Shown here one piece after another: positions 597 through 14,276 of a DNA stretch of 64,000 nucleotides. Location: the NCBI GenBank assembly GCA_023700805.1, contig JAMPYF010000005.1:79432-143431 (forward strand). Reading direction: 5' to 3'. The notes under the pieces were generated by a model that had not been told where the DNA came from, searched no databases, and was given only the letters and a program-made list of their open reading frames with translations. Numbering within the stretch: position 1 is the stretch's first letter; each line of letters opens with the position of its first letter. The DNA is from Sulfuritalea sp. Its GTDB lineage: Bacteria > Pseudomonadota > Gammaproteobacteria > Burkholderiales > Rhodocyclaceae. A program made the translations under genes and the position numbers.

Positions 597-2465
597 TCAG
601 AAGTTGTACGACACGTAGCCGCCGACAAAGTCCCTGTCCTTCAGCACTTGATGGTACTCGGACTTGCCGCCCCAGAAGGTCGTGTAGTTGACGCCGGCCT
701 GCCACTTCGCAGGGTTCTGCACGAAGTTGACATAGAAGTTGGCCGATTTCGCACCCTCCTGCCAGAACGCCACCAGGTTGGGCGTTTCGCCCTTCAGGGC
801 GCCCATCATGAAGATGCCGGGAATCACCTGCCAGCCGCTGATCAGCGAGCTGTCGTAGACCAGGCTGAAATCGAACATGTAGCCGAACGAGTCCTTGCTG
901 CCGGTGCCCTTGACCGTGGTCTTGTTGCCGTTGGCGGGCCAGGTGTACAGACCCCCGGCGATCACCTGGTCGACCGTGACCGGGCCGCCGCTGCCGTTCA
1001 CCGTTCGCGTATAGATCTTGTTGGGATCGGCTTCCGGGTAGCGCGTCCAGACGAACTCGCCGAGGAAGGTGCCGGTCTGCGCGCCGACGGCATCGAGGAA
1101 CCAGCCGTGATCGCCCGGCGTCAGCGCCAGGATGCCGGTGATGTGGGTCTGGTACTTCTTCATGTCGATCCAGCCATCGCAGTCGTAGGCACCCGGGCCG
1201 ACAGCCCCCGGAATGAAGTTCTGCGCCGGTCCGCCGGTTCCCGTCGGCGTGCAGGCCGAGAGCGACACCGCATCCTTCGGCCGGTAGGACAGCTCGGCGC
1301 CGACCGCCCAGTTGCCGATCGAGGTGTTGACACTGACGCCATACATTTTCCGGTTCTCCAGGAACACGTTCTCGACCGTGCCGAAGGGTGCCAGCCCGGT
1401 GTCCTTCCACCAGCGCCCATTGGGCGTCTTGTCGTGGTAGTTCATGTAGTAGAAGCCGAGATTGAGGTCGGATTCCGGCGGCGTCCAGCGCAGCGACAAG
1501 CCGTACTGCCCCGAATTCTTCGGCGTCAGGTCGGAAGTCTGCGGTACCGCAAAGGCGGTTGCCGATGCGCCGACGCCGGCAAACGCGAAGCCTGCCAGCG
1601 CCGCCTCGGCGGCGGCCAGGCTGACCCCGTTCATCCGTGCATAGGTCGGCGCGTCGATACCGTTGAGCCAGGAAAGGCCGCCGGGGCCGCCGCCGAAATC
1701 GAGATAGAGCTGCTTGTGCGATCCCTTGCCGGCGAAATCGGCAACCGACCAATAGCTGCCGACCGCGGGCAACTTGCTGCGGTTCCAACTGGTCTGGTAA
1801 TAGGCCTCGAAGTTCAGGCCCTGACCCAGCCCCGTGGCAAAGCTGATGATCGGGGCGGGCAGGAACACCTCCTTCAGCTGCATCCCCGGGCTGGACAGGC
1901 GGTTGATGTCCATGGCATTGGTGGAGTTGATGCCGCCGGGCGCAAACAGGCTCTCGCCCCAGCTCACCACCTGGTTGCCGACCCGCACCCGCGCGCGCTG
2001 CTCGCCAATGTTGAATTCCTTGCTGACCCAGAGGTCCATCAGGTTCACATCCGAGGTCATCTGCTGTTTCGCGTCGCCCAGCAGCTCGGTGCGGCGCGTC
2101 TTGTCGGCGGCGAAGTCCTGCATCCAGTTCGCCCGCGCCATGAAGGTGATGTCGGACGGTAGCTTGAGCAGCAGTTCGTGGTTGCCCTTGAGATAGGTGG
2201 TAAAGAAATCGCCCTTGTTGTAGTTCATGTTGCCGTCGTCGCCATTCGACCAGACGGCGAAATCGGCGCTGGCGCCGCAAGGCCCGGTGACATCGCCGAC
2301 CAGGGAGCAGCTCTGGTTCTTCAGGCGCTTGCCGAAGCCGAAGGTGACGGTCGAATCGAATGAACCCTTGACCGAATCACCCTCGAAGGTGAAGGCCTGG
2401 GCGCCCAGCGAGTACAGCCCGGCCACCATCATCGCGGCGACGAGTCGTGTTGTCCGTGTTTTCAT
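597..2465 (-). CDS. DUF1302 family outer-membrane protein
   Basis: This is a 622-residue exported protein with a clear Sec signal peptide (cleavage likely after GAQA, about residue 24). It has the alternating aromatic/polar segments of a beta-barrel and ends in an aromatic residue (final YNF), as outer-membrane barrels do. The family is known from clusters for hydrophobic or steroid-like substrates, paired with DUF1329 and an RND exporter, and its molecular role is unproven. The start is supported by GGGAG 8-9 bases upstream. It is the last gene of the leftward operon, 17 bases after the DUF1329 stop. A role as a porin or channel for a hydrophobic substrate or product is inference. Confidence 0.85.
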   Translation of the reverse strand: MKTRTTRLVAAMMVAGLYSLGAQAFTFEGDSVKGSFDSTVTFGFGKRLKNQSCSLVGDVTGPCGASADFAVWSNGDDGNMNYNKGDFFTTYLKGNHELLLKLPSDITFMARANWMQDFAADKTRRTELLGDAKQQMTSDVNLMDLWVSKEFNIGEQRARVRVGNQVVSWGESLFAPGGINSTNAMDINRLSSPGMQLKEVFLPAPIISFATGLGQGLNFEAYYQTSWNRSKLPAVGSYWSVADFAGKGSHKQLYLDFGGGPGGLSWLNGIDAPTYARMNGVSLAAAEAALAGFAFAGVGASATAFAVPQTSDLTPKNSGQYGLSLRWTPPESDLNLGFYYMNYHDKTPNGRWWKDTGLAPFGTVENVFLENRKMYGVSVNTSIGNWAVGAELSYRPKDAVSLSACTPTGTGGPAQNFIPGAVGPGAYDCDGWIDMKKYQTHITGILALTPGDHGWFLDAVGAQTGTFLGEFVWTRYPEADPNKIYTRTVNGSGGPVTVDQVIAGGLYTWPANGNKTTVKGTGSKDSFGYMFDFSLVYDSSLISGWQVIPGIFMMGALKGETPNLVAFWQEGAKSANFYVNFVQNPAKWQAGVNYTTFWGGKSEYHQVLKDRDFVGGYVSYNF

Positions 2466-2482: not shown

Positions 2483-3868
2483 TCAACGCTCGCTGACGGC
2501 GCGCAGGTTTTCGGCCGTATAGAACTCTTTCCTGAATTTCGCGTCTTTCGACTCGACCACCCAGCGCATGTCGCTTCCTGCGCCCAGCGGACTCTGGTCG
2601 AAGACAAAGCGCCCGCCTTCCAGCATGTTGTACTGGACGAAGGCCGGGTTGTCGCAGCTGGCGGTTTCATAAACGGGGATCACGAAGCTCTCGCGCAGTT
2701 TCCACAACTTGCCGTTGGCGTCGAAATCCTCGGCCACGGAGATCGCCCAGCTGTCCTCGTCGAGATAGAAGGTCCGCTTCGGCACCACGTGGCGGACGCC
2801 GGCCTTGACCGTCGCTTCGACCACCCAGACGCGGTGCAGCTCGTAGCGCCGCGCCGCGGGATCGATGCCTTCCGGCTTGACTACGTCGCTGAACTTGGCC
2901 TTGGGATCGTAGATGCCGAAGGAGTTGTAGCCGACATAGATTTCCTTCTTGCCGACCAGCTTCCAGTCGAAACGGTCGATGGTGCCGTTGAACATGCGCG
3001 GCTCGTCCAGCGTGTACTGGTTCTCGAAGCCGATCTGCGGCGCGTCGTAGGAATACGAGGGCATGCGGCGAACGCGGCGCTGTCCCGGGAAATAGTAGAA
3101 GGTATCGCTGCCGACCCGGTCGGTGTAGTAGGCGATCGCCAGGGCCTGGCCCGCCAGCGCCACCGGGCTTTCATAGGCGAAGTAGGTGTAGTACTCGATG
3201 GGCGGCAGGTCGGCCAGCGAGGTCGAACCCTTGGCGCCCCACGGGAAGAAATAGGTTTGCGTGGCTCCGGCCTGAACCCAGTCGCTGCTGCCCTTGCGCG
3301 GCGAGAGCGTGATGAAGTTGCGCGCCCATTCAAAGCCGATCCCGGCGTACTTCATCTTGTAGTTCCACATCGCCTCGGCCCCGGATTTGGGAATCGGGAA
3401 GGGGATGCCCGGCATGAAGCCTTCCTTCAGGCTCCAGCCGTCAGCGCCGAGTTTCGCCGCGGTGGCATTCTTCCTGGTGTTCTGCTCGACGAAGTCCGGG
3501 TTGGCACAGCTGCGATGCGTCGGATAGACGTCCATGCGGTAGCCCGGGGTTTGCTTGATCAGTTGCACCTGCCCCGGAGTCAGCTTGTCGGCATACTTGT
3601 CGAGATTGGCGGCGGTGATCGAGTACAGGGGTTTTTCACCCTTGTCCTTCCATGCGGCAGCGCGATTCTGGCCATGACTCCAGCCGGGGCCCTGCACCTG
3701 GCGGCCCGGCCATGCGGGTATGGAGCCGTCCTTGTTGCCGGCCTTTTCCGCACCGACGGGGGTCAAGTCCTTGCCGAGCCGCTCGGCCTCCTGGGGCGAC
3801 GCCGCAAGACTTGCTCCGCAAAGCATCGCGGTCACCGCCATTGCGATCAGTTTCATGCTCTCGCTCAT
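2483..3868 (-). CDS. DUF1329 family exported protein
   Basis: This is a 461-residue protein with a signal peptide (MSESMKLIAMAVTAMLCGASLA) followed by SPQEAERLGKDLTPVGAEKAGN, the characteristic mature start of DUF1329 proteins. The fold resembles LolA/LolB-like lipid carriers, so a periplasmic shuttle for hydrophobic molecules is plausible. Two ATGs lie in frame. AGGAG sits only two bases from the first (3874) but eight from the second (3868), so the second is chosen. The gene pairs with the DUF1302 gene downstream. It follows the cytochrome c gene by about 70 bases and so may belong to the amine-dehydrogenase operon. Confidence 0.85.
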   Translation of the reverse strand: MSESMKLIAMAVTAMLCGASLAASPQEAERLGKDLTPVGAEKAGNKDGSIPAWPGRQVQGPGWSHGQNRAAAWKDKGEKPLYSITAANLDKYADKLTPGQVQLIKQTPGYRMDVYPTHRSCANPDFVEQNTRKNATAAKLGADGWSLKEGFMPGIPFPIPKSGAEAMWNYKMKYAGIGFEWARNFITLSPRKGSSDWVQAGATQTYFFPWGAKGSTSLADLPPIEYYTYFAYESPVALAGQALAIAYYTDRVGSDTFYYFPGQRRVRRMPSYSYDAPQIGFENQYTLDEPRMFNGTIDRFDWKLVGKKEIYVGYNSFGIYDPKAKFSDVVKPEGIDPAARRYELHRVWVVEATVKAGVRHVVPKRTFYLDEDSWAISVAEDFDANGKLWKLRESFVIPVYETASCDNPAFVQYNMLEGGRFVFDQSPLGAGSDMRWVVESKDAKFRKEFYTAENLRAVSER

Positions 3869-3940
3869 TGCCATTACTCCTCTAGGTATGGTTGTTCGTA
3901 TCAGGTCGCCGCGCCATGCCGCCGCGGTTGCCAGCCACCG

Positions 3941-4405
3941 CTACTGCCCGCCGATTTGCGCCAAGACCTGCTCCCGCAGTTTGCGAACCTCTCCCGGCGG
4001 CAGCGGCTTGCCGCGAAGCGCCGCGAAGCCTTCCGCTTTCAGCGCTACCGGACTGTCGTTGAATGCGGACAGCACATATGACGCGATGGCCGCCAGCTCA
4101 TGGTCCGCAAGCGCCGCCTGGGAAGGCATGACCCCGGCAAATTTGCCGACGCGGGTTTTGATCGTGCCGGCCATTCCCGAAACCAGGACATGGGCGATGT
4201 AGGTGCGCCCCAGGTCTAGCTCCGCAACTTTCTTCAGGGCTCCAACGAGCGGCGGCGCCAGTCCCGGTATCCCCTCGCCGTCGGCCTGGTGACAGGCCAC
4301 GCAGTGCTTGCCGAATAGCTCGGCGCCCGCGGCGCCGTTGGCCTCGGCGCAGATCGGGGTGCTGCACAGGGCCAGCGCCAGCAAGAGCAGCCGCTTCTTC
4401 ATCAT
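3941..4405 (-). CDS. Periplasmic monoheme cytochrome c
   Basis: This is a 154-residue protein with a signal peptide (MMKKRLLLLALALCSTPICA), one CVACH heme site just after the mature N-terminus, and a later GVMPSQ that offers the axial Met, the pattern of a class I cytochrome c. The start overlaps the stop of the amine-dehydrogenase light-chain gene in an ATGATG arrangement, so the two are translationally coupled. That makes it the likely electron acceptor of the TTQ enzyme, in the role played by azurin or amicyanin elsewhere. No copper protein is encoded nearby, which fits a cytochrome acceptor. The partner assignment is inference. Confidence 0.88.
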   Translation of the reverse strand: MMKKRLLLLALALCSTPICAEANGAAGAELFGKHCVACHQADGEGIPGLAPPLVGALKKVAELDLGRTYIAHVLVSGMAGTIKTRVGKFAGVMPSQAALADHELAAIASYVLSAFNDSPVALKAEGFAALRGKPLPPGEVRKLREQVLAQIGGQ

Positions 4406-4932
4406 CGCGCCCGCGGCGACTCGGCAGTTCCGACCACGGCAGCGACCGTGCAGTGGTAGTTGTTGTTGCCGTTGGCCATGCACCAGTTGACGTCGTTGTG
4501 CACACCCATGCGGTAGCCGGGTCTTTCGCCTTCATTGAAGTTGCACAGGCAGCGGCCGCAACTGGTGGCCCCGCAGCAGTCGTTGTAGCTGATCAGGTAG
4601 TCCCTGCCGTCATTCGGGTTGTGACAAGTGCCGACCCAGGTCACTTTCGATACTTCGGTTCCCGGCGGACAGCTCGAAATAGTGCCGCCGCAGCAGGTGC
4701 ACAACCAGCCGTCGAGTGCGCAGTAGCGCCAGTACTCGCAGGCGGTATCGTCATTGCGCTTGTCCTTCGGTGCCCCATGGGCCTCCCGCGCCACGCGATC
4801 GAAGGGCAGTATCGGCAGGACCAGGGCCGTGCCGACCACCGCACGGCCTATCCGCGCCAAAGCGCTGCGCCGCGAGATTCCCTGTGCCGCCATGCGCGTC
4901 TTTTGTTCGAAAAAGCTATCGAACCATTTCAC
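4402..4932 (-). CDS. aauA: TTQ-dependent amine dehydrogenase, light (beta) subunit
   Basis: This 176-residue precursor is the quinone-bearing subunit of a methylamine/aromatic-amine dehydrogenase. A twin-arginine leader (SRRSALARIG, from residue 20, then a hydrophobic run) matches the exported light chains. By alignment from memory to the Paracoccus enzyme, Trp99 (KVTWVGTC) and Trp150 (DVNWCMAN) are the two tryptophans that crosslink to TTQ. Asp118 (YNDCCG) is the active-site Asp, and Asp74 matches the conserved Asp32. The Cys-rich core for the subunit's disulfides is intact. The gene follows the heavy chain, MauE and MauD. Aromatic-amine or methylamine specificity cannot be fixed here, so the symbol is tentative. 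Confidence 0.9.
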   Translation of the reverse strand: MKWFDSFFEQKTRMAAQGISRRSALARIGRAVVGTALVLPILPFDRVAREAHGAPKDKRNDDTACEYWRYCALDGWLCTCCGGTISSCPPGTEVSKVTWVGTCHNPNDGRDYLISYNDCCGATSCGRCLCNFNEGERPGYRMGVHNDVNWCMANGNNNYHCTVAAVVGTAESPRAR

Positions 4933-4968: not shown

Positions 4969-5562
4969 TCACGCCCTCTGGTCGAGGAATTCCTGGACCG
5001 AGGCGACACCCAGTTCCTTCGCCGTGAACAGGCTCTCCAGTTGTTCGCGGGAATTGACCAGGCCCTTGGCACGTATCCGCCCGTCGTCGCCGATCAGCAC
5101 GGCATAAGGCAGGCGGCCGACCTTCAGCGCCATGCCCAGCTCCGTCGACAGCAGATAGGGGAAGTCGGTCAGCTTGGCCGATCGATAGAAGGCAAGATGC
5201 TCGGCAGGCTCGCCGTCGCTGGCCAGCACCACGTCGAGCCAGCCGCGTTCGCTGTGCCGCACCGAACGCAGAATCGGCAACAGCTTCTTGCAGACCGGAC
5301 AGGTCGGCGAAAGAAAGAACAGCAGCTGGCTGCGTGCATTTCCCGCGCTACCTATCGCGACGCGGCTGCCGGACAGCGAGTCGATGTCCAGTTGCGGCGC
5401 GACCTCGCCGACCTTGGGCCCACTGTCGAGCATCAGCGCTCCCATCGGGGCGACGCGTTCGTAAAGGATGCCGATCTGGCGCGCCAGGGCCAGCACCGTA
5501 ACCATGAGGACCAAGACCACGGCCCACAGCAAGACGTTCGAAATCACAATCGCATCGATCAT
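4969..5562 (-). CDS. aauD: MauD/AauD thioredoxin-like maturation protein
   Basis: This 197-residue protein has an N-terminal membrane anchor (residues 6-27) and a periplasmic thioredoxin-like domain with the redox motif C88-P-V-C91. MauD proteins are needed to form or isomerise the many disulfides of the TTQ light chain, whose gene begins 36 bases downstream. GAGGAA lies about nine bases before the ATG, and the ATG starts one base after the stop of the mauE-like gene, so the two are co-translated. Length and motif are normal for the family. Confidence 0.9.
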   Translation of the reverse strand: MIDAIVISNVLLWAVVLVLMVTVLALARQIGILYERVAPMGALMLDSGPKVGEVAPQLDIDSLSGSRVAIGSAGNARSQLLFFLSPTCPVCKKLLPILRSVRHSERGWLDVVLASDGEPAEHLAFYRSAKLTDFPYLLSTELGMALKVGRLPYAVLIGDDGRIRAKGLVNSREQLESLFTAKELGVASVQEFLDQRA

Positions 5563-5563
5563 T

Positions 5564-6130
5564 TCAGGAGTTCCTCAAAGCGCTCAGGCGTGGTTGTGTG
5601 GCCAGCAACTGACTGACCAGGGCATACAGGCCGAGCAGGGCCAGGGTGGCACAGGCCACGGTCAGGTAATCCATCCAGACCAGGTCGCGCGGGGTGGACT
5701 CGGCGGCGATCCACGGCAGCGCGGCGAGCAGGACCAGGTTGCGCGCGACCAGCCCCCATGAGATCGACTGGTCGCCGATGCCGCCGCCGAATCCGCCGCA
5801 GCCGCATTCGATTTCGGAGTATCCCCGCAACAGGTTTATTGCCACCGCCGAGGTCACCAGAAGCAGAAGCGCGAATGCCAGCAGCGCGGCCGGCAGGCGC
5901 GTGGACTCAAACAGCAGCAGCGATCCGGCAAGCGCCTCGGCCGGCGGCAGCAGCCTGGCCATCCAGCCCACCATGGCGGCGGGCAGCAGGCGATAGTTCT
6001 CCAGGGCCGCGGCGAAGGCCTCCTGCTCCCTCAGCTTCTGCCAGGCTCCCGACAGCAAGACAACGGCAAGCGCAGCTCCCATGGCGTGGGACAGAACCGG
6101 GTCGACCGGCAGCGGCAACGGCGTCATCAT
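5564..6130 (-). CDS. aauE: MauE/AauE integral membrane protein for amine dehydrogenase maturation
   Basis: This roughly 188-residue membrane protein of the DoxX/MauE type has four to five hydrophobic segments and a CGCGGFGGG motif in the loop near residue 100. MauE is required together with MauD for stable light chain, probably by passing electrons or oxidising equivalents to MauD. Starts at GTG 6142, ATG 6130 or ATG 6127 are possible. I prefer the ATG pair, because a GC-rich dispersed repeat (about 6130-6176) lies directly upstream. The order heavy chain, E, D, light chain matches the aau and mau operons. Confidence 0.88.
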   Translation of the reverse strand: MMTPLPLPVDPVLSHAMGAALAVVLLSGAWQKLREQEAFAAALENYRLLPAAMVGWMARLLPPAEALAGSLLLFESTRLPAALLAFALLLLVTSAVAINLLRGYSEIECGCGGFGGGIGDQSISWGLVARNLVLLAALPWIAAESTPRDLVWMDYLTVACATLALLGLYALVSQLLATQPRLSALRNS

Positions 6131-6176
6131 TGGACTACCCACCCCCCTGCCCCCGCCCCAAGGGCGGGGGTGACTT
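6130..6176. repeat. GC-rich hairpin repeat before mauE
   Basis: A C-run/G-run palindrome (CCCCGCCC...GGGCGGGG type) lies just upstream of the mauE-like start. A closely similar sequence in the opposite orientation sits just before livM (24477-24519), and a looser relative is at 35717-35750. This looks like a dispersed intergenic repeat. Confidence 0.6.
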
Positions 6177-6245: not shown

Positions 6246-7412
6246 TCACTGCGTATCCATGAGTGTCGGGGTTTCGCCGAAAGGACCGCCGCTGGCCAGG
6301 AACTTCATGCGTCCCTGATGCGGTGTCGCGCTGAATGCGTTCAGCATCGCCTTGGTGCCGTCGAAAGCCAGCAGGCGCGGCGCGGCGCCCTGGGTCACGG
6401 CCAGCGTCGTGGTGCCCGCCGCCGGACTGCGGGCAATGCGCTTGCCCGATGCCAGGTCGTAGGCCCAGATTTCGTCGGCGGGATTCTTGTGGCTGCCTTC
6501 CGCGCCGTTCCTGTGCATCCCGACATAGAGGGTTCCGCTCTGTTCATGCACGGCCAGCAGCTGATAGCCGCCCGGCCGCCAGCGGCCCTTGGCATCCGCA
6601 GCCGGAACCAGCGACCAGCGCGGAGCCGGCAGTGCCACATCGCCGCCGATATCGACCGGCTGCAAATGGCCCTTGAAGGAGGCGAAGTAGTAGCGGTCGC
6701 CGATTCTTTCGCCCGACACGAACAAGGCATCGTCATCGGGATCGAAGAAGGCGGCGCTCTTCTTGCGCCCCACGACATTGCCTTTGTCATCGAGCACGAC
6801 CGTGAGCATGGTGCCGTCGCCGCACAGCGACGAGAACCGGTCGGAAACGCTGGCCGGCGTATAGATCGCCCAGCAGCCCGGGGTCGCGACCTCGGTGACG
6901 AACTTGCCGGCGCTGCGATCGACGATGCTCACCGAACTGGCCGGAGTTGCGTTCTGCACGAAGATGAAGCGCCCGTTCGCGGAGCTGCGGATCAGGCCCT
7001 TGTAGGCCAGCGCCAGGGCGCGCTTGTTCGGCACGGCGATCTCCGCCTTGAGCTTGAGCGTGAGCGCGTCGTAGATGTCGATCTGGTCGAAACGCTCGCC
7101 GCGGTTCAAGCGCGCGTAATAGGTGGTCGCGACATAGATTTCCGAGCGATCCGGCGAGAGCGCCGTGTGGCCGACATAAGCGGTGCCCACCATGCCTTCC
7201 AGCTTCAGGCTGGCACCATCGATAACCATCAGCTTGCCGTCGATGATGTGCGGAAACGCCGCATCGTTGAGGTAGAGCCGATACGGGGTGGCCGCCGGCA
7301 GGTTCCTCACGGTGATGCGATCCACCGGCAACTCGGCCGCGGCGCTGGCGGCAAGGGCTGCCCACGAACACAGCATGCCAAACCCAAACGCAAGCAATGA
7401 CCTCGCTAGCAT
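6246..7412 (-). CDS. aauB: TTQ-dependent amine dehydrogenase, heavy (alpha) subunit
   Basis: This 388-residue secreted protein (signal peptide ending near AALAASAAA) folds as the seven-bladed beta-propeller that forms the alpha subunit of TTQ amine dehydrogenases. Recognisable stretches are GTAYVGHTALSPDRSEIYVATTYYARLNRG and WRPGGYQLLAVHEQSGTLYVGMH, which I recall as conserved in AauB/MauB. The enzyme oxidises a primary amine to aldehyde and ammonia in the periplasm. This is the first gene of its operon, with GAGGAG seven bases before the ATG. The divergent aldehyde dehydrogenase gene across 433 bases would take the aldehyde on. Sequence flavour suggests the aromatic-amine branch, but that is not certain. 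Confidence 0.88.
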   Translation of the reverse strand: MLARSLLAFGFGMLCSWAALAASAAAELPVDRITVRNLPAATPYRLYLNDAAFPHIIDGKLMVIDGASLKLEGMVGTAYVGHTALSPDRSEIYVATTYYARLNRGERFDQIDIYDALTLKLKAEIAVPNKRALALAYKGLIRSSANGRFIFVQNATPASSVSIVDRSAGKFVTEVATPGCWAIYTPASVSDRFSSLCGDGTMLTVVLDDKGNVVGRKKSAAFFDPDDDALFVSGERIGDRYYFASFKGHLQPVDIGGDVALPAPRWSLVPAADAKGRWRPGGYQLLAVHEQSGTLYVGMHRNGAEGSHKNPADEIWAYDLASGKRIARSPAAGTTTLAVTQGAAPRLLAFDGTKAMLNAFSATPHQGRMKFLASGGPFGETPTLMDTQ

Positions 7413-7845: not shown

Positions 7846-9276
7846 ATGAAGACTTACCTGAATTTCGTCAACGGTCAGCCCGTCGCTTCGGAGAAGACCT
7901 TCGAATCCTTCAATCCCGCGACCGGCGAAGTTCTTGGCCTGGCCCCGATTTCCACGGCAGCGCAAGTAAAGTCGGCGATTGCCGCCGCCCGCGCGGCGCA
8001 ACCCGCCTGGGCCGCGCGTCCCGATGGCGAGCGCAAGGCCCTGATGATGAAGCTTGCCGAGGCGATCAAGCAAAACGCGCCCTACCTTGCCGAATGGGTC
8101 ACGCGCGAACAGGGCAAGCCGCTCGGCGGCGTCGGCCCCGATCAGGTGCCGGGCGCCCGCTTCGAGCTCTGGGGCTGCGAGGTGTGGACCCAGGTGCCAG
8201 CGAGCCTCGACCTGCCGGTGGACGTGGTGTTCGAGGACGATACGCGTCGTGACGAAATGCACCGCCAGCCCTTTGGCGTGGTGGCCGCCATCGCACCGTG
8301 GAACTGGCCGCTGCTGATCGCCATCTGGCAGATGATTCCCTCGATCCGCGCCGGCAATACCGTGGTCATCAAGCCCTCCGAATACACCACCATCGGCACC
8401 CTGGAACTGGTGCGCGTGATCGGCGAGCTGTTGCCGCCGGGCGTGGTCAATACCGTCAGCGGTCCGGGCGAGGTGGGAGCCTGGCTGGCCGGCGATCCGG
8501 GCATCGACAAGATCATGTTCACCGGTTCGACCAGCACCGGCAAGAAGATCGCCGAAGCCGCGGCGCGCAACATGGTGCCGACCACCATGGAACTCGGCGG
8601 CAACGATGCCGCGATCGTCCTGCCCGGCGCCGATCCTCAGGCCATGGCGATGGGCCTGTTCTGGGGCGCCTTCATCAACATGGGACAGACCTGCGCCGCC
8701 GCCAAGCGCCTGTACGTGCACGAATCCCTGTTCGACCAGACGGTCGCCGCGCTGAAGGAACTCGCCCAGGCGATGCCGATGGGCAACGGCATGGACGAGG
8801 GCATGGTCATGGGGCCGATTCAGAACCGCATGCAATTTGACAAGGTGGTCGACCTGGTCGACAGCGCGAAGCAGGCCGGCGCCACCATCGTCTGCGGCGG
8901 CAAGCCCAAGGATGGACCGGGCAATTTCTATCCGCTGACCCTGGTCACGGGCCTCGCAGACGGGGCAAGGCTGGTCGACGAGGAACAGTTCGGCCCGGTG
9001 CTGCCGATCATCAAGTACAGCAATGTGGACGACGCCATTGCCAGCGCCAACCGGCTGCGCGCAGGCCTCGGCGCCTCGGTCTGGTCCACTGACATCGAGG
9101 CGGCGCGGGCCGTCGCCAGCCGCATCCAGGCCGGCACGGTGTGGATCAACCAGCACGGCATGATCCACCCCATGGTGCCCTTCGGCGGCATCAAGGGCTC
9201 CGGCTACGGCGTCGAGTTCGGTGTCGACGGGCTGAAGGCGGTGACCCAGCCGCAGGTCATCAGCCTGAAGAAGTGA
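7846..9276 (+). CDS. NAD(P)-dependent aldehyde dehydrogenase
   Basis: This is a 476-residue aldehyde dehydrogenase of normal length. The catalytic Cys283 lies in GQTCAAAKR, the general base Glu249 in TMELGGND, and the oxyanion Asn153 in PWNWP, all intact. There is no signal peptide, so it is cytoplasmic. The ATG at 7846 has GGAG eight bases upstream; a longer frame to 7696 lacks support. It heads an operon with cytochrome, diheme and nod genes and faces the amine dehydrogenase operon. The natural role is to oxidise the aldehyde made from the amine (for example phenylacetaldehyde or a similar product) to the acid. The substrate is inference. Confidence 0.92.
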   Translation: MKTYLNFVNGQPVASEKTFESFNPATGEVLGLAPISTAAQVKSAIAAARAAQPAWAARPDGERKALMMKLAEAIKQNAPYLAEWVTREQGKPLGGVGPDQVPGARFELWGCEVWTQVPASLDLPVDVVFEDDTRRDEMHRQPFGVVAAIAPWNWPLLIAIWQMIPSIRAGNTVVIKPSEYTTIGTLELVRVIGELLPPGVVNTVSGPGEVGAWLAGDPGIDKIMFTGSTSTGKKIAEAAARNMVPTTMELGGNDAAIVLPGADPQAMAMGLFWGAFINMGQTCAAAKRLYVHESLFDQTVAALKELAQAMPMGNGMDEGMVMGPIQNRMQFDKVVDLVDSAKQAGATIVCGGKPKDGPGNFYPLTLVTGLADGARLVDEEQFGPVLPIIKYSNVDDAIASANRLRAGLGASVWSTDIEAARAVASRIQAGTVWINQHGMIHPMVPFGGIKGSGYGVEFGVDGLKAVTQPQVISLKK

Positions 9277-9347: not shown

Positions 9348-9698
9348 ATGCCGCACTTGTCGAAGGTCCGCCGGATGTTGGCCGCGGCGCTGCTGCTGGC
9401 AGCTCCCGGCGTATGCGCCGAGACTGCCGAACAAGCGGCGGCGACGCTGTATGCGCTCAATTGCATGGGTTGCCATTTCCCGCCCGAAGCGATTCGTCGC
9501 CAGGCGCCCTTCCTGGTCGGGCAGTTTGCGCATACCGAAGGCGGCCGCATGTTTTTCATTCGCGTCCCGGACAACGGCGGCAAGCCCCTAGGCAAGGAAC
9601 AGAATGCCCTGCTCCTGAGCGAGATCCTGAGCTGGAAAAAGAGTTGCCCGGTGGTGATCCAGAATGCCGCTTTCCTGCAGTACACGGGCCCGCGATGA
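9348..9698 (+). CDS. Small periplasmic monoheme cytochrome c
   Basis: This 116-residue exported protein has a signal peptide ending near GVCA, one CMGCH heme site about residue 42, and a short C-terminal domain (FIRVPDNGGKPLGKEQNALLLSEILSW). CGGAG precedes the ATG by about eight bases. It ends in ATGA, overlapping the start of the first diheme gene, so the two are translationally coupled. I do not recognise a named family. It may carry electrons to or from the diheme proteins or the amine dehydrogenase. Confidence 0.85.
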   Translation: MPHLSKVRRMLAAALLLAAPGVCAETAEQAAATLYALNCMGCHFPPEAIRRQAPFLVGQFAHTEGGRMFFIRVPDNGGKPLGKEQNALLLSEILSWKKSCPVVIQNAAFLQYTGPR

Positions 9699-10783
9699 GC
9701 TGGCCGGGAAAAACTTTCCGTGTGCTGCCGGTGCTGTGCCTGCTTGCCGCCGGCGGGCCGGCAGCCAGGGCCGAGGCGCCGCAACTGCAGCCTTTGCCGG
9801 CGCCGGCGAAAGTCGATCCGGCACTGGCCGACCTGGGGCGACATCTGTTCTTCGAGCCGCGCCTGTCGGGGGACGGCAGCCGCAGCTGCGCCAGTTGCCA
9901 TATTCCGGCACGGGGCTTTGGCGACGGCGAGCCGCTGTCGCGGGGCTACAACGGCACCGAGTATTTTCGCAACGCGCCCGGCCTGCTCTCGGTGCGGCTC
10001 AAGCCGCTGCTGATGTGGGACGGCCGCGGCAGCGACTTGGCCGCCGTGGTGCGCGAAATGGTGCTCGATGCGCAGTTCATGAACGGCAATGCCGGCATCA
10101 TCGCCGAACGGATCCGCCAGATGCCGCCGCTGTTCGCGCTATGGCGGCGCGCCTTCGGCGAACGCAGCGAACCGCGCGGCGAGCAGGCCTTCCTGGCGCT
10201 CAGCGAGTACCTGAAGACCCTGGATTTCGGCCGCAGCGCGGTCGACGCCGCCTTGCGCGGCGAGGCCGGCCTGCCGCCCCTGGCCGACCAGGGCATGCGC
10301 CTGTTCACCGGCAAGGCCGGCTGCGTGGCCTGCCACCACGGACCCTTGCTCTCCGACGGCAGGCCGCATCGGCTCGGCGTGCCCGAGCACCCGGCATTGA
10401 TGCGCGAGCCCCTGCGCACCGTGAGCCTGTTGCGCCATGTCGCCCTGCATCAACTGCCCAACCCGATGGCGACGCGCGGCGATCCCGGCGTCTATGCCAT
10501 CAGCAAGGACCCGGCCGAGCGCGGCAGCTTCATCACGCCCGGCCTGCGCGGCCTGGGCCACACCGCGCCCTACCTGCACAACGGCCGTCTTGCCAGCCTC
10601 GACGAGGTGGTGGACTTCCATGATCGCGGCGGCGGCCCCGGCAGCGAGTTGCGCCCGCTGGGCCTCAATCCGCAGGAGCGGCGGGCGCTGGTGGCCTTCC
10701 TGCAAGCCCTTTCCGCGCCGCTGGAGAAGGTCGCGGAACCGCCGGCCCACGACTACGACGCAGTGGACGGGAGCCGCTGGTGA
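9695..10783 (+). CDS. MauG/CcpA-type diheme cytochrome c peroxidase (first of two)
   Basis: This 362-residue periplasmic protein has a signal peptide (to about ARA26) and two c-heme sites, C65-A-S-C-H69 and C210-V-A-C-H214, spaced as in bacterial cytochrome c peroxidases and MauG. Trp108 in LLMWDGRG matches the inter-heme Trp93 of MauG. At the C-terminal position that I align with the MauG Tyr294 ligand (Met in peroxidases), the sequence reads VVDFH309DRGG, so His309 may be the distal ligand. MauG completes TTQ on the amine-dehydrogenase light chain. The neighbourhood favours that role, but a plain H2O2 peroxidase is possible. The start overlaps the previous stop, and the end overlaps the next start (GTGA). 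Confidence 0.85.
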   Translation: MSWPGKTFRVLPVLCLLAAGGPAARAEAPQLQPLPAPAKVDPALADLGRHLFFEPRLSGDGSRSCASCHIPARGFGDGEPLSRGYNGTEYFRNAPGLLSVRLKPLLMWDGRGSDLAAVVREMVLDAQFMNGNAGIIAERIRQMPPLFALWRRAFGERSEPRGEQAFLALSEYLKTLDFGRSAVDAALRGEAGLPPLADQGMRLFTGKAGCVACHHGPLLSDGRPHRLGVPEHPALMREPLRTVSLLRHVALHQLPNPMATRGDPGVYAISKDPAERGSFITPGLRGLGHTAPYLHNGRLASLDEVVDFHDRGGGPGSELRPLGLNPQERRALVAFLQALSAPLEKVAEPPAHDYDAVDGSRW

Positions 10784-11952
10784 GGCGGATGGCCTTCATC
10801 GCTATGGCTTTTGCGGCGCTTGCCGCAGCCGCCTGGGCACCGTCGCCGTCGCCTTTGGGGCCCGCATCCCTGGCCTCGCTGCCGGCGGTGCCGGTGCCCG
10901 CGCACAACCCGATGAGCGCGGAAAAGATCGCCCTGGGGCGTCTGCTGTTCTTCGATGCGCGCCTGTCGGGCGACGCGTCCACCTCCTGCGCCTCCTGCCA
11001 CCTGCCGCAGCATGGCTGGAGCCACAGCGAAGCCCTGGCGCCCGGCTATCCCGGGCATCGCCTGTGGCGCAACAATCCGACCGTGTTGAATGCCGCCCAC
11101 TTCAGGCAGCTGATGTGGGACGGCACGCTCGACAGCCTGGAAATCCAGGCGCGCTCCGCGATGCAGGCGCCGGTCGAAGGCAACGGCAAGGCCTTGATGG
11201 TCCAAATGCGCCTGCGCCTGATCCCGGACTATGTCGAGCGCTTCCGTCGCGTGTTCGGCAGCGAGTGGCCGCAACTGGACGATGCCTGGCGTGCGATCGC
11301 CGCGTTCGAACGCACGCTGGTGTCCGATCCGCGCCAGGTGCCCTTCGACCGCCACCTCGCGGGCGACCGAACTGCGCTTTCCGCGGCCGCCCGTCGCGGG
11401 CTGGCCTTGTTCGAGGGCAAGGCCGGCTGCGTCCGGTGCCATCACGGCGCGCTTGCCAGCGATGAAGGCTTCCATGCGCTGGGGGTGCCGCGCCAGCAGT
11501 TGTTCGACTCCAATCCGCGGGTGCAGATCGCCGTGCGCTGGCAAAACCGGCAGCGCGACGTGCCGCGCGCCGTGTATCGCAACCGGGACGAGGATCTCGG
11601 CCGCTACTACCGCACGCGCGATCCGGCCGACATCGGCAAGTTCCGCACGCCCAGCCTGCGCGAGCTGAAGTACACCGCGCCCTACATGCACAACGGCGTC
11701 TTCGCGACGCTGCGCGAGGTCGTGGAATTCTTCGACGCCGGCGGCGGCGAAATACCCAACAAGTCGCCGCTGCTGAAGCCGCTCGGCCTGAGCGGCGAAG
11801 AAAAGAGCGACCTGGTGGCGTTTCTCGAAGCCTTGAGCATGGAACGCCCGCTGCTCGTCGCCGTCCCCGAGCTGCCGCCCATGCTGCCCCTGGACGGTGT
11901 CGTCGGCGCGGACTGCGCGGCGCCCGCCCCTGCCGCCAGAGGAAACTTATGA
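10780..11952 (+). CDS. MauG/CcpA-type diheme cytochrome c peroxidase (second of two)
   Basis: This 390-residue paralogue of the preceding gene starts at a GTG that overlaps the upstream stop (GTGA); an ATG nine bases on is the alternative. It has an N-terminal signal anchor (AFIAMAFAALAAAAW), hemes at C70-A-S-C-H74 and C217-V-R-C-H221, and the inter-heme Trp113 (LMWDG). At the position I align with MauG Tyr294 it has Phe318 (VVEFF318DAGG), which cannot ligate iron, so the two proteins differ at the site that tunes this family. They may act as a pair. The stop overlaps the nod start (ATGA), so expression is tied to nod. Confidence 0.85.
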   Translation: MRRMAFIAMAFAALAAAAWAPSPSPLGPASLASLPAVPVPAHNPMSAEKIALGRLLFFDARLSGDASTSCASCHLPQHGWSHSEALAPGYPGHRLWRNNPTVLNAAHFRQLMWDGTLDSLEIQARSAMQAPVEGNGKALMVQMRLRLIPDYVERFRRVFGSEWPQLDDAWRAIAAFERTLVSDPRQVPFDRHLAGDRTALSAAARRGLALFEGKAGCVRCHHGALASDEGFHALGVPRQQLFDSNPRVQIAVRWQNRQRDVPRAVYRNRDEDLGRYYRTRDPADIGKFRTPSLRELKYTAPYMHNGVFATLREVVEFFDAGGGEIPNKSPLLKPLGLSGEEKSDLVAFLEALSMERPLLVAVPELPPMLPLDGVVGADCAAPAPAARGNL

Positions 11953-14276
11953 GTCGGCGCCTGCTCGGCAACTTCTGGAACCGCCTGGTGATGGACAGGC
12001 GCAACTGGTGGCTGCCTTTGACCGCGGTGCTGATCATCGGTCTGGGCAGCATGATCTACGTCGGCATGCGCACTTACCAGGACGCGCCGCCGATTCCGGA
12101 TTTCGTTTCCGAGTCCGGCGAGACGCTGCTGCCGGCTGCCGCGATCACGCGCGGCCAGATCGTGTTCCTCAAGTATGGCCTGATGAACTACGGCTCGATG
12201 TTCGGCGACGGCGCCGGCCGCGGTCCCGACTTCACCGCCGACGCCCTGCACGCCATGGCGCGCGCGATGCGCGACCATCACGCCTCGCGCGACGGCGTCG
12301 ATCCCGCCACCGCCCAGGCCCGCACCCAGGCGGAAATCCGGCACAACCGCTACGCTGCCGCCGACAACCGGGTGACGCTGGGCGAGGCGCAGGCCTATGC
12401 CGCGCGCGAGCTGGAACGCCGCTATGCCGCGATGTTCCGCGGCGAGGGCGAGGAACCCTTCCATCCCGCCGGCTACATCAGCGATGCGGCCGAACTGCGC
12501 GATCTCGCCGCCTTCTTTTTCTGGGGCGGCTGGGTCTGCGGCGCCGCGCGTCCCGGCCAGGACTACAGCTACACGCACAACTGGCCCTATGACGAACTGG
12601 CCGGCAACCGTCCCAGCGCTCCGATCATGATGTGGAGCGTCGCCGCGGCGCTGGGCCTGATCATCGCCCTCGGCATCGTGCTGTTCCTCCATGGCCGCTA
12701 CGGCAGCCTGGCCGGCTGGCGCCAGGCCGGCGCCGCGACCGGGCTGGCGACCCGTTCGCGCGTCGACGGCTTCGAGCCGACAGCCCTGCAGCGCGCCACC
12801 TACAAATTCTTTGCCGCCGCGACACTGCTCTTCCTGCTGCAGATCGTCGCCGGCGTGCTGACCCTCGACGACTTCCTGCGCATCAGCCGCAGCCTGGGAA
12901 TCGACCTGGCCGCGGCGCTGCCCATCACCATCGTGCGCGCCTGGCACCTGCAACTGGCCCTGATGTGGATTTCCGCCTGCTGGGTGGGGGCTTCGGTGTT
13001 CGTCCTGTCCGCCGCGCAGCGCGAGACGCCGCAAGGCTTGCAGCGCGAGTTGAACCTCCTGTTCGGCGTCTTCGTCGTCTGGGTGGCCGGCACGCTGATC
13101 GGCATTGCCCTTGGCTCCAGGGGACTGCTCGGCGAGCACTGGAACCTGCTGGGCAACCAGGGCTGGGAATTCGTCGAAATGGGCAAGCTGTGGCAGGGCG
13201 TGCTGTTCGTGGTCTTCGCCCTGTGGCTGCGCATCGTCGCGCGCCTGGCGCGGGCGGTGTGGCACGAGGGCGATGCCTGGACCCTGCCGAAGTGGCTGCT
13301 GTATGCGGTGGCCAGCGTACTGCTGCTGTTCGTTTCCGGCTTCGTCGCACGGCCGGAGACCAATTTCGTCGTCGCCGACTTCTGGCGCTGGGCGGTGATC
13401 CACATGTGGGTCGAAGCCTTCTTCGAGGTGTTCACCACGGCGCTGCTGGCCTGGTTCATGGTGCTCATGGGCTTCGTCAGCCATGCCGCCGCCTCGCGCA
13501 TCGTCTACCTGGCGACCCTGCTGTTTCTCGGCTCCGGCCTGCTCGGGATTTCCCACAACTTCTATTGGAACGCCAAGCCGGTGGCGACCCTGGCACTGGG
13601 CAGCATCTTCTCCACGCTGCAGGTGGTGCCGCTGATCCTGCTCACCCTGGAGGCCTGGCAGTTCCGCAACGCGCCGCGGCAAGCCATGGGCGGGCGCGGC
13701 GCAGGACAGCCGGCCTTCGGTCAGGCCGAGGCCTTCCTGTTCCTGATCGGCGTGAACTTCTGGAACTTCTTCGGCGCCGGGGTATTCGGCTTCATCATCA
13801 ACCTGCCGATCGTGAATTACTACGAGCACAGCACCTATCTCACGGTGAACCACGGCCACGCCGCACTGATGGGGGTCTACGGCAATCTGGCGATTGCCGC
13901 CATCATTTTTTGCAGCCGCTACCTGATTGCCGCCGAACGCTGGGATGCCCGCCTGCTGCGCCGCGTCTTCTGGGCGCTCAACCTGGGCCTGCTGCTGATG
14001 GTGGTGATCGACCTGTTTCCGGCCGGCATCGCCCAACTCAACGAGGTGCTCGCGCACGGCCTCTGGCAGGCGCGCTCGCAGGCATTCATCGAGGGCGAAG
14101 TTTTCCGCACGCTGACCTGGGCGCGCATCCTCGGCGGCGCCGTGTTCGCTTTCGGCGGCGTACTGCCGCTGGTCTGGTTCGTCGTGACGCGCCTGGCATC
14201 CCTCAAACCCGCCCCGGCGCCGGCGCCAGCCGACGCTGCCCAGGACTTGGCCGCCGCCGCGGCACCCGCGAGATAG
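11949..14276 (+). CDS. nod: Putative nitric oxide dismutase (NorZ/qNor-family)
   Basis: This 775-residue protein has the NorZ layout: an N-terminal helix, a periplasmic domain (about 45-225), then some 13 membrane helices. The heme ligands are kept (His333 in AWHLQLA; His635/His637 in VNHGHAALMG), as are the Fe-B ligands His485 and Glu489 (HMWVEAFFEVF) and His536. The second His of the usual GxxHH motif is Asn537 (GISHN537FYW). The quinol-site pattern H-x3-E-x3-F is replaced by Asp307, Arg311 and Ser315. As I recall, these changes define the Nod proteins of Methylomirabilis oxyfera and gammaproteobacterium HdN1, proposed to turn 2 NO into N2 and O2. Its start overlaps the diheme gene stop. 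An atypical NO reductase remains possible. Confidence 0.82.
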   Translation: MSRRLLGNFWNRLVMDRRNWWLPLTAVLIIGLGSMIYVGMRTYQDAPPIPDFVSESGETLLPAAAITRGQIVFLKYGLMNYGSMFGDGAGRGPDFTADALHAMARAMRDHHASRDGVDPATAQARTQAEIRHNRYAAADNRVTLGEAQAYAARELERRYAAMFRGEGEEPFHPAGYISDAAELRDLAAFFFWGGWVCGAARPGQDYSYTHNWPYDELAGNRPSAPIMMWSVAAALGLIIALGIVLFLHGRYGSLAGWRQAGAATGLATRSRVDGFEPTALQRATYKFFAAATLLFLLQIVAGVLTLDDFLRISRSLGIDLAAALPITIVRAWHLQLALMWISACWVGASVFVLSAAQRETPQGLQRELNLLFGVFVVWVAGTLIGIALGSRGLLGEHWNLLGNQGWEFVEMGKLWQGVLFVVFALWLRIVARLARAVWHEGDAWTLPKWLLYAVASVLLLFVSGFVARPETNFVVADFWRWAVIHMWVEAFFEVFTTALLAWFMVLMGFVSHAAASRIVYLATLLFLGSGLLGISHNFYWNAKPVATLALGSIFSTLQVVPLILLTLEAWQFRNAPRQAMGGRGAGQPAFGQAEAFLFLIGVNFWNFFGAGVFGFIINLPIVNYYEHSTYLTVNHGHAALMGVYGNLAIAAIIFCSRYLIAAERWDARLLRRVFWALNLGLLLMVVIDLFPAGIAQLNEVLAHGLWQARSQAFIEGEVFRTLTWARILGGAVFAFGGVLPLVWFVVTRLASLKPAPAPAPADAAQDLAAAAAPAR

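Follow-up and report, generated by a model that had tools for sequence, protein, structure and literature searches.

The 64,000-nucleotide window analysed here, from contig JAMPYF010000005.1 of a Sulfuritalea sp. genome (GCA_023700805.1), contains a chain of four genes on the forward strand that ends in nod, an intact open frame with an ATG start encoding a 775-amino-acid member of the nitric oxide dismutases (Nod), a family predicted to produce O2 from nitric oxide in the dark (11949..14276). The genes preceding it encode, in order, a small protein of 116 amino acids with one CxxCH motif (9348..9698), for which a Pfam search matched no family, and two di-heme proteins with CCP_MauG domains, MauG-like 1 (9695..10783) and MauG-like 2 (10780..11952, Pfam PF03150). 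Each junction in the chain is a 4-base overlap. A cluster of genes for an amine dehydrogenase is placed divergently to the chain, and an aldehyde dehydrogenase gene lies upstream on the nod strand.

Active-site residues and family placement

The nod product contains NorB cytochrome c-like and COX1 domains in Pfam. In a HMMER alignment to 3ayf_A, the quinol-dependent nitric oxide reductase (qNor) of Geobacillus, its GISHN motif lies opposite GIGHH, which puts Asn537 (codon 13557..13559) in the place of the FeB ligand His560, just as an initial annotation had read from the protein. The same alignment bears out that annotation's placing of Asp307, Arg311 and Ser315 (codons within 12867..12893) at the quinol-site residues His328, Glu332 and Phe336. 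Two further Nod-type changes had been missed: Gln558 (13620..13622) replaces Glu581, and Gly730 (14136..14138) replaces the quinol-binding Asp746. The quinol site of the window protein is lost through H328D, E332R, F336S and D746G in Geobacillus numbering. The remaining ligands, His333, His485, Glu489, His536, His635 and His637, had been described as retained, and they are invariant, together with Asn537 and Gln558, across 58 aligned Nod-type rows.

In the text of Ettwig et al. 2012 cited here (PMC3413370), putative nitric oxide (NO) dismutases show a His to Asn change, a Glu to Gln change and substituted quinol-site residues, and quinol binding is ascribed to His328 and Asp746. The Glu to Gln change carries no number there, and our alignment suggests that it corresponds to Glu581. 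Compared by description, the putative NO dismutases of Methylomirabilis oxyfera (DAMO_2434/2437), strain HdN1 and Muricauda are likewise qNor-like proteins in which one FeB His is replaced by Asn, a catalytic-site Glu by Gln, and the quinol site is lost; M. oxyfera, like the source genome, also encodes a canonical qNor. The host lineage differs, however, and no methane or alkane monooxygenase was found among the ten scanned neighbours of the window's nod.

A 201-row alignment combined the window protein with its 120 best database hits and 80 rows from fetched loci; these rows were chosen as relatives of the window protein, some proteins entered twice, and L040 was dropped because of a broken frame. 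Position 560 is Asn in 200 of the 201 rows, the sole exception being a canonical qNor (L027_1), so the Asn of the window protein is not due to chance. Gln occupies position 581 in 199 rows, and position 746 is Gly in 180 and Ala in 16. The loss of Glu332 is also widespread (Gly in 131 rows, Arg in 34), with Glu kept only in L027_1. Because His328 is retained in 167 of the 201 rows and gives way to Asp in only 12, D307 is, on this alignment, a local trait of the window's close relatives and not a mark of Nod. The initial annotation had taken the Asn and the Asp/Arg/Ser triplet together as diagnostic of Nod; the triplet does not hold up as such a mark. At Geobacillus position 90, Asp replaces His in 199 of the 201 rows, a candidate additional Nod-type marker.

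In a 62-row tree a single 100/100 branch parts 49 Asn560/Gln581 rows, including the window protein, from 13 rows with the His-His pair and Glu581; the root of this tree is unknown, several of its branches are long, and it contains no M. oxyfera or HdN1 sequence. The window protein groups with Sulfuritalea and other Rhodocyclales rows, inside a wider Asn560/Gln581 clade that takes in Burkholderiaceae, Gammaproteobacteria, Planctomycetota, Bacteroidota, Acidobacteriota and Melainabacteria. Among the Bacteroidota, Algoriphagus, which the cited part of PMC10264387 lists as a nod-bearing genus, falls on the window's side of the 100/100 branch. The source genome encodes a separate canonical qNor (L002), which has both the His-His pair at 559/560 and the intact quinol site that the window protein lacks. 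Because the residues, the tree and this separate qNor agree, the window protein can be assigned to the Nod family, in line with the original proposal of a candidate Nod as opposed to an ordinary NO reductase. It does not cluster with canonical qNor sequences, the second His and the quinol-site residues do not reappear at shifted positions, and residues and tree together lead us to reject canonical qNor as its identity.

The solved qNors 3ayf, 8bgw and 8zgp share the predicted fold, the domain order and all haem and metal histidines but one, whereas the window protein is without His560, Glu581 and the quinol-site residues His328, Glu332, Phe336 and Asp746. An AlphaFold2 model of the nod product (pLDDT 84.6) had 3ayf as its top fold match (TM 0.88/0.91), and the predicted fold is unable to distinguish Nod from qNor.

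Within the window's own family, 45 of 199 genomes gave a match to the protein. Of these loci, 26 were aligned (L086-L111), a set confined to first copies scoring 150 bits or more, and seven of the rows proved Nod-type. Counting the window, this gives eight Nod-type genomes, of which five have the window's form and G095, G142 and G172 a deeper one at about 46% identity. The remaining 19 rows (L093-L111) are qNor-like and all have His328, the His-His pair, Glu581 and Asp746, with Asp at 332 in five and Leu at 336 in three. The deeper Nod-type rows (L090, L091 and L092, from G172, G095 and G142) have Thr328, Arg332, Asn560, Gln581 and Gly746. A warning that some sequences fall between nod and qNor is given in PMC10286720, in the part cited; the deeper group could represent such intermediates, and the window protein is not among them in the 62-row tree. 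Almost two-thirds of the nod genes reported in the cited text of PMC13386854 come from Pseudomonadota, including Burkholderiales, so a betaproteobacterial nod is no longer surprising.

Gene neighbourhood of nod and its conservation

The divergent cluster on the reverse strand includes the aauA-like light chain of an amine dehydrogenase with the tryptophan-derived quinone TTQ (4402..4932, PF02975), an aauD/mauD-like thioredoxin-fold protein (4969..5562; a redoxin match, named from its place in the cluster), an aauE/mauE-like gene (5564..6142, PF07291) and the aauB-like heavy chain (6246..7412, PF06433). The light chain is best matched to the aromatic amine dehydrogenase 2agl_D, at 181 bits versus 109-152 bits to methylamine dehydrogenases; with this kinship to a solved enzyme and the partner genes B, D and E present, we take the cluster to encode an aromatic amine dehydrogenase. 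On the same strand, a c-type cytochrome gene adjoins aauA (3941..4483, PF00034), followed by genes for a DUF1329 protein (2483..3874, PF07044) and an outer-membrane protein (597..2465), an open frame that is presumably of DUF1302 type, judged by eye, and whose relatives adjoin aau in related loci. The aldehyde dehydrogenase gene on the nod strand occupies 7846..9276 (PF00171, 464 bits).

Genes of related loci were called with a crude custom caller, and the hosts are mostly metagenome-assembled genomes (MAGs). On this basis, 12 of the 80 fetched genome loci carry the four-gene module; among the 14 with a Nod of 66% identity or more, 12 do. Its close packing recurs as well: in a set of 14 loci, an in-frame start codon lies 4 bases inside the preceding gene at 13 of the MauG-like 2-nod junctions, 13 of the junctions between the two MauG-like genes, and 11 of those between the small CxxCH gene and MauG-like 1. 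The aau genes share a contig with the module in 10 of the 12 module loci, as well as in the window and in G073, and the light chain is present in 17 of the 22 genome entries searched, which include three likely duplicate pairs. In a gammaproteobacterial locus (L021:6669-12259), aau lies divergently beside nod and a relative of the small CxxCH gene is present, and the MauG-like pair was not found there. In two further loci (L011:12857-14843 and L061:7733-9723) nod adjoins ubiU and ubiV, which serve to make ubiquinone without oxygen.

A comparable arrangement has already been published: in Burkholderiales MAGs from eutrophic lakes, two genes of cytochrome c peroxidase type and a mauABED (methylamine utilization) cluster adjoin nod, as in the window (PMC13386854, 2026), and the passage cited reports no clear oxygen-consuming system beside nod. 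What our data add is a light chain nearest to aromatic amine dehydrogenase, the contrast with nod-less clusters, most of which lack the MauG-like pair, a nod-less genome that has it (G155), and a case of boxCB adjoining nod.

Amine dehydrogenase clusters with and without nod

The light chain was detected in 22 of the 199 family genomes, and 18 of these are without detected nod. Its rate is 4 of 8 in Nod-type genomes versus 18 of 191 in nod-less ones (p 0.006, kinship ignored), and the 18 cases indicate that Nod is not required for the amine dehydrogenase as a rule. Thirteen of the 18 nod-less clusters are well covered; contig ends truncate those in G012, G056, G055, G161 and G164, which were not counted. 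Of the 13, 12 have no MauG-like pair, with a single distant MauG-like gene adjoining the light chain in G139. Since only G155 has the pair, we reject the idea that it is simply part of every amine dehydrogenase cluster.

The G155 genome is 98% complete, and its locus (L176) keeps the amine dehydrogenase, the aldehyde dehydrogenase, the small CxxCH gene and both MauG-like genes, while nod was not found anywhere in the genome. The pair can therefore exist independently of nod. Directly behind the pair in G155 lies a gene that looks by eye guanylate kinase-like, and the same gene lies behind nod in L005. The G155 locus is a natural nod-less version of the arrangement and offers a natural control strain. 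Taken together, the MauG-like pair travels mostly with nod and is not tied to it. A Fisher test gave p 1.5e-7, a value that takes in the clusters cut by contig ends and ignores kinship, and we do not rely on it. Such a distribution would be expected of a pair that acts on the dehydrogenase, with nod providing the oxidant under anoxia, and other readings fit it as well.

Proposed production and possible uses of oxygen

The source genome has hits to the cd1-type nitrite reductase (521 and 493 bits). This family does not separate nod-bearing from nod-less genomes, as it occurs in 19 of the 22 genome entries, including the nod-less G155 and G010, and was not found in the nod-bearing G228, G233 and G238. 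Besides Nod and qNor, five more COX1-family genes score over the cut-off in the source genome, which also encodes a BoxB (72% identity). In L018 (6264-12307), a locus of a gammaproteobacterial MAG, boxC, boxB (for an oxygen-using benzoyl-CoA epoxidase) and nod follow one another on one strand with 437 bases between boxB and nod, and boxC and boxB were both identified by NCBIfam equivalogs above cut-off. The row points, as one case, to a separate link between nod and O2 use; boxB was not found in the other nod loci examined.

For the Nod-family gene, which is intact and linked in an operon-like chain to two MauG-like genes, we lean towards a function in which 2 NO are converted to N2 and O2 and the O2 goes to oxygen-needing steps nearby. 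The NO would be supplied by the cd1-type nitrite reductase of the same cell. Nod would rearrange two NO in the membrane with no outside electrons, probably releasing O2 beside the periplasm, where the MauG-like pair may consume it or H2O2 derived from it. In the cited text of PMC3413370, a qNor-like protein without the quinol site and one FeB His is said to take no outside electrons and perhaps to rearrange 2 NO to N2 and O2, an idea called speculation there. Most likely the pair would act in maturing the TTQ cofactor of the aromatic amine dehydrogenase encoded alongside, and an enzyme otherwise dependent on oxygen could thus be built during denitrification. MauG is able to use O2. As stated in the cited part of PMC6405878, MauG acts in TTQ formation. 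The nod-chained pair beside a dehydrogenase that likely needs O2 to be built suggests a possible destination for the gas, and supply to the MauG-like enzymes is the use we favour as a hypothesis. The stricter version, in which the four-gene module is an on-board O2 supply for the cofactor, with Nod's O2 spent by the pair on TTQ so that denitrifying bacteria assemble the quinoprotein without air, we regard as rather doubtful; it would give Nod a role beyond the oxidation of hydrocarbons. Surplus O2 could feed terminal oxidases or the BoxB epoxidase encoded elsewhere in the genome.

Several observations weigh against the favoured reading. The MauG-like proteins share two CxxCH motifs and the CCP_MauG domain with the MauG/MbnH/bacterial cytochrome c peroxidase family, but MauG-like 2 and MauG-like 1 score 220 and 153 bits, far below the NCBIfam TTQ_mauG cut-off of 444, and both fall well under the MbnH cut-off. 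At the position that we take to align with the distal Tyr of MauG, all 15 examined copies of MauG-like 2 have Phe, and the copies of MauG-like 1 have His (9) or Tyr (6). The pair is lacking in 68 of the 80 nod loci, some of them on short contigs, with a single distant MauG-like gene further from nod in L069 and L070; MauG-like 2 is apparently frame-broken in L010; and in G004 (locus L044, 84% complete) the module is present and the light chain was not found. The nod-less genomes with an amine dehydrogenase, and G155 among them, belong here too. A scan of the window that tolerated at most one mismatch found no FNR-type box. Finally, in the text of PMC13386854 cited here, the isolation or purification of Nod is still unreported and opposing results exist.

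It is possible, though unlikely, that Nod works as proposed while the MauG-like pair serves as peroxidases guarding the periplasm from H2O2 that arises once O2 is set free in a reduced cell, with the O2 itself passing to terminal oxidases or to oxygenases like BoxB. Among solved structures, MauG-like 2 scores highest against a cytochrome c peroxidase (4aal, 152 bits) and MauG-like 1 against the di-heme enzyme 6e1c (106 bits), and the further COX1-family genes, BoxB and the boxCB-nod row of L018 supply candidate consumers. The pair adjoins catabolic dehydrogenase genes, however, and in G155, which has no nod, Nod-made O2 cannot explain its presence.

It is improbable that the window protein is an NO reductase with a swapped donor, in which the small CxxCH protein and the di-heme proteins would carry electrons from the amine dehydrogenase and the product would be N2O. 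Such a role would suit a predicted qNor fold chained to three predicted haem proteins next to a periplasmic-type dehydrogenase, but Asn560 and Gln581 also occur in relatives from various phyla whose loci gave no sign of such neighbours, and a canonical qNor is already encoded in the genome. In the portion of their paper cited here (PMC3413370), Ettwig et al. moreover argue that the common active-site changes impair the uptake of both electrons and protons. Very improbable is an NO-detoxifying enzyme with any O2 as a by-product, an idea raised in the cited text of PMC13386854, which records regulators of the NsrR and OxyR kinds close to some nod genes, since the canonical qNor is present for NO removal and nod here sits among catabolic genes.

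How non-methanotrophic Nod bacteria use O2 is stated to be open in the cited part of PMC13386854. The overlapping, conserved MauG-like/nod chain, the nod-less G155 and the boxB-nod pair are concrete, testable candidates for such use. If the favoured reading of O2 production and nearby use is true, NO would serve as an oxygen source for cofactor making and aromatic ring opening, and N2O would be bypassed. Full-length nosZ was not found in the source genome, where NCBIfam TIGR04244 matched short fragments only, and at 89% completeness this leaves its absence unproven. Hits of at least 380 bits to the same model occur in 9 of 31 genomes, two of them above the curated cut-off, and several genomes of the source genus gave long nosZ hits, mostly under the model cut-off.

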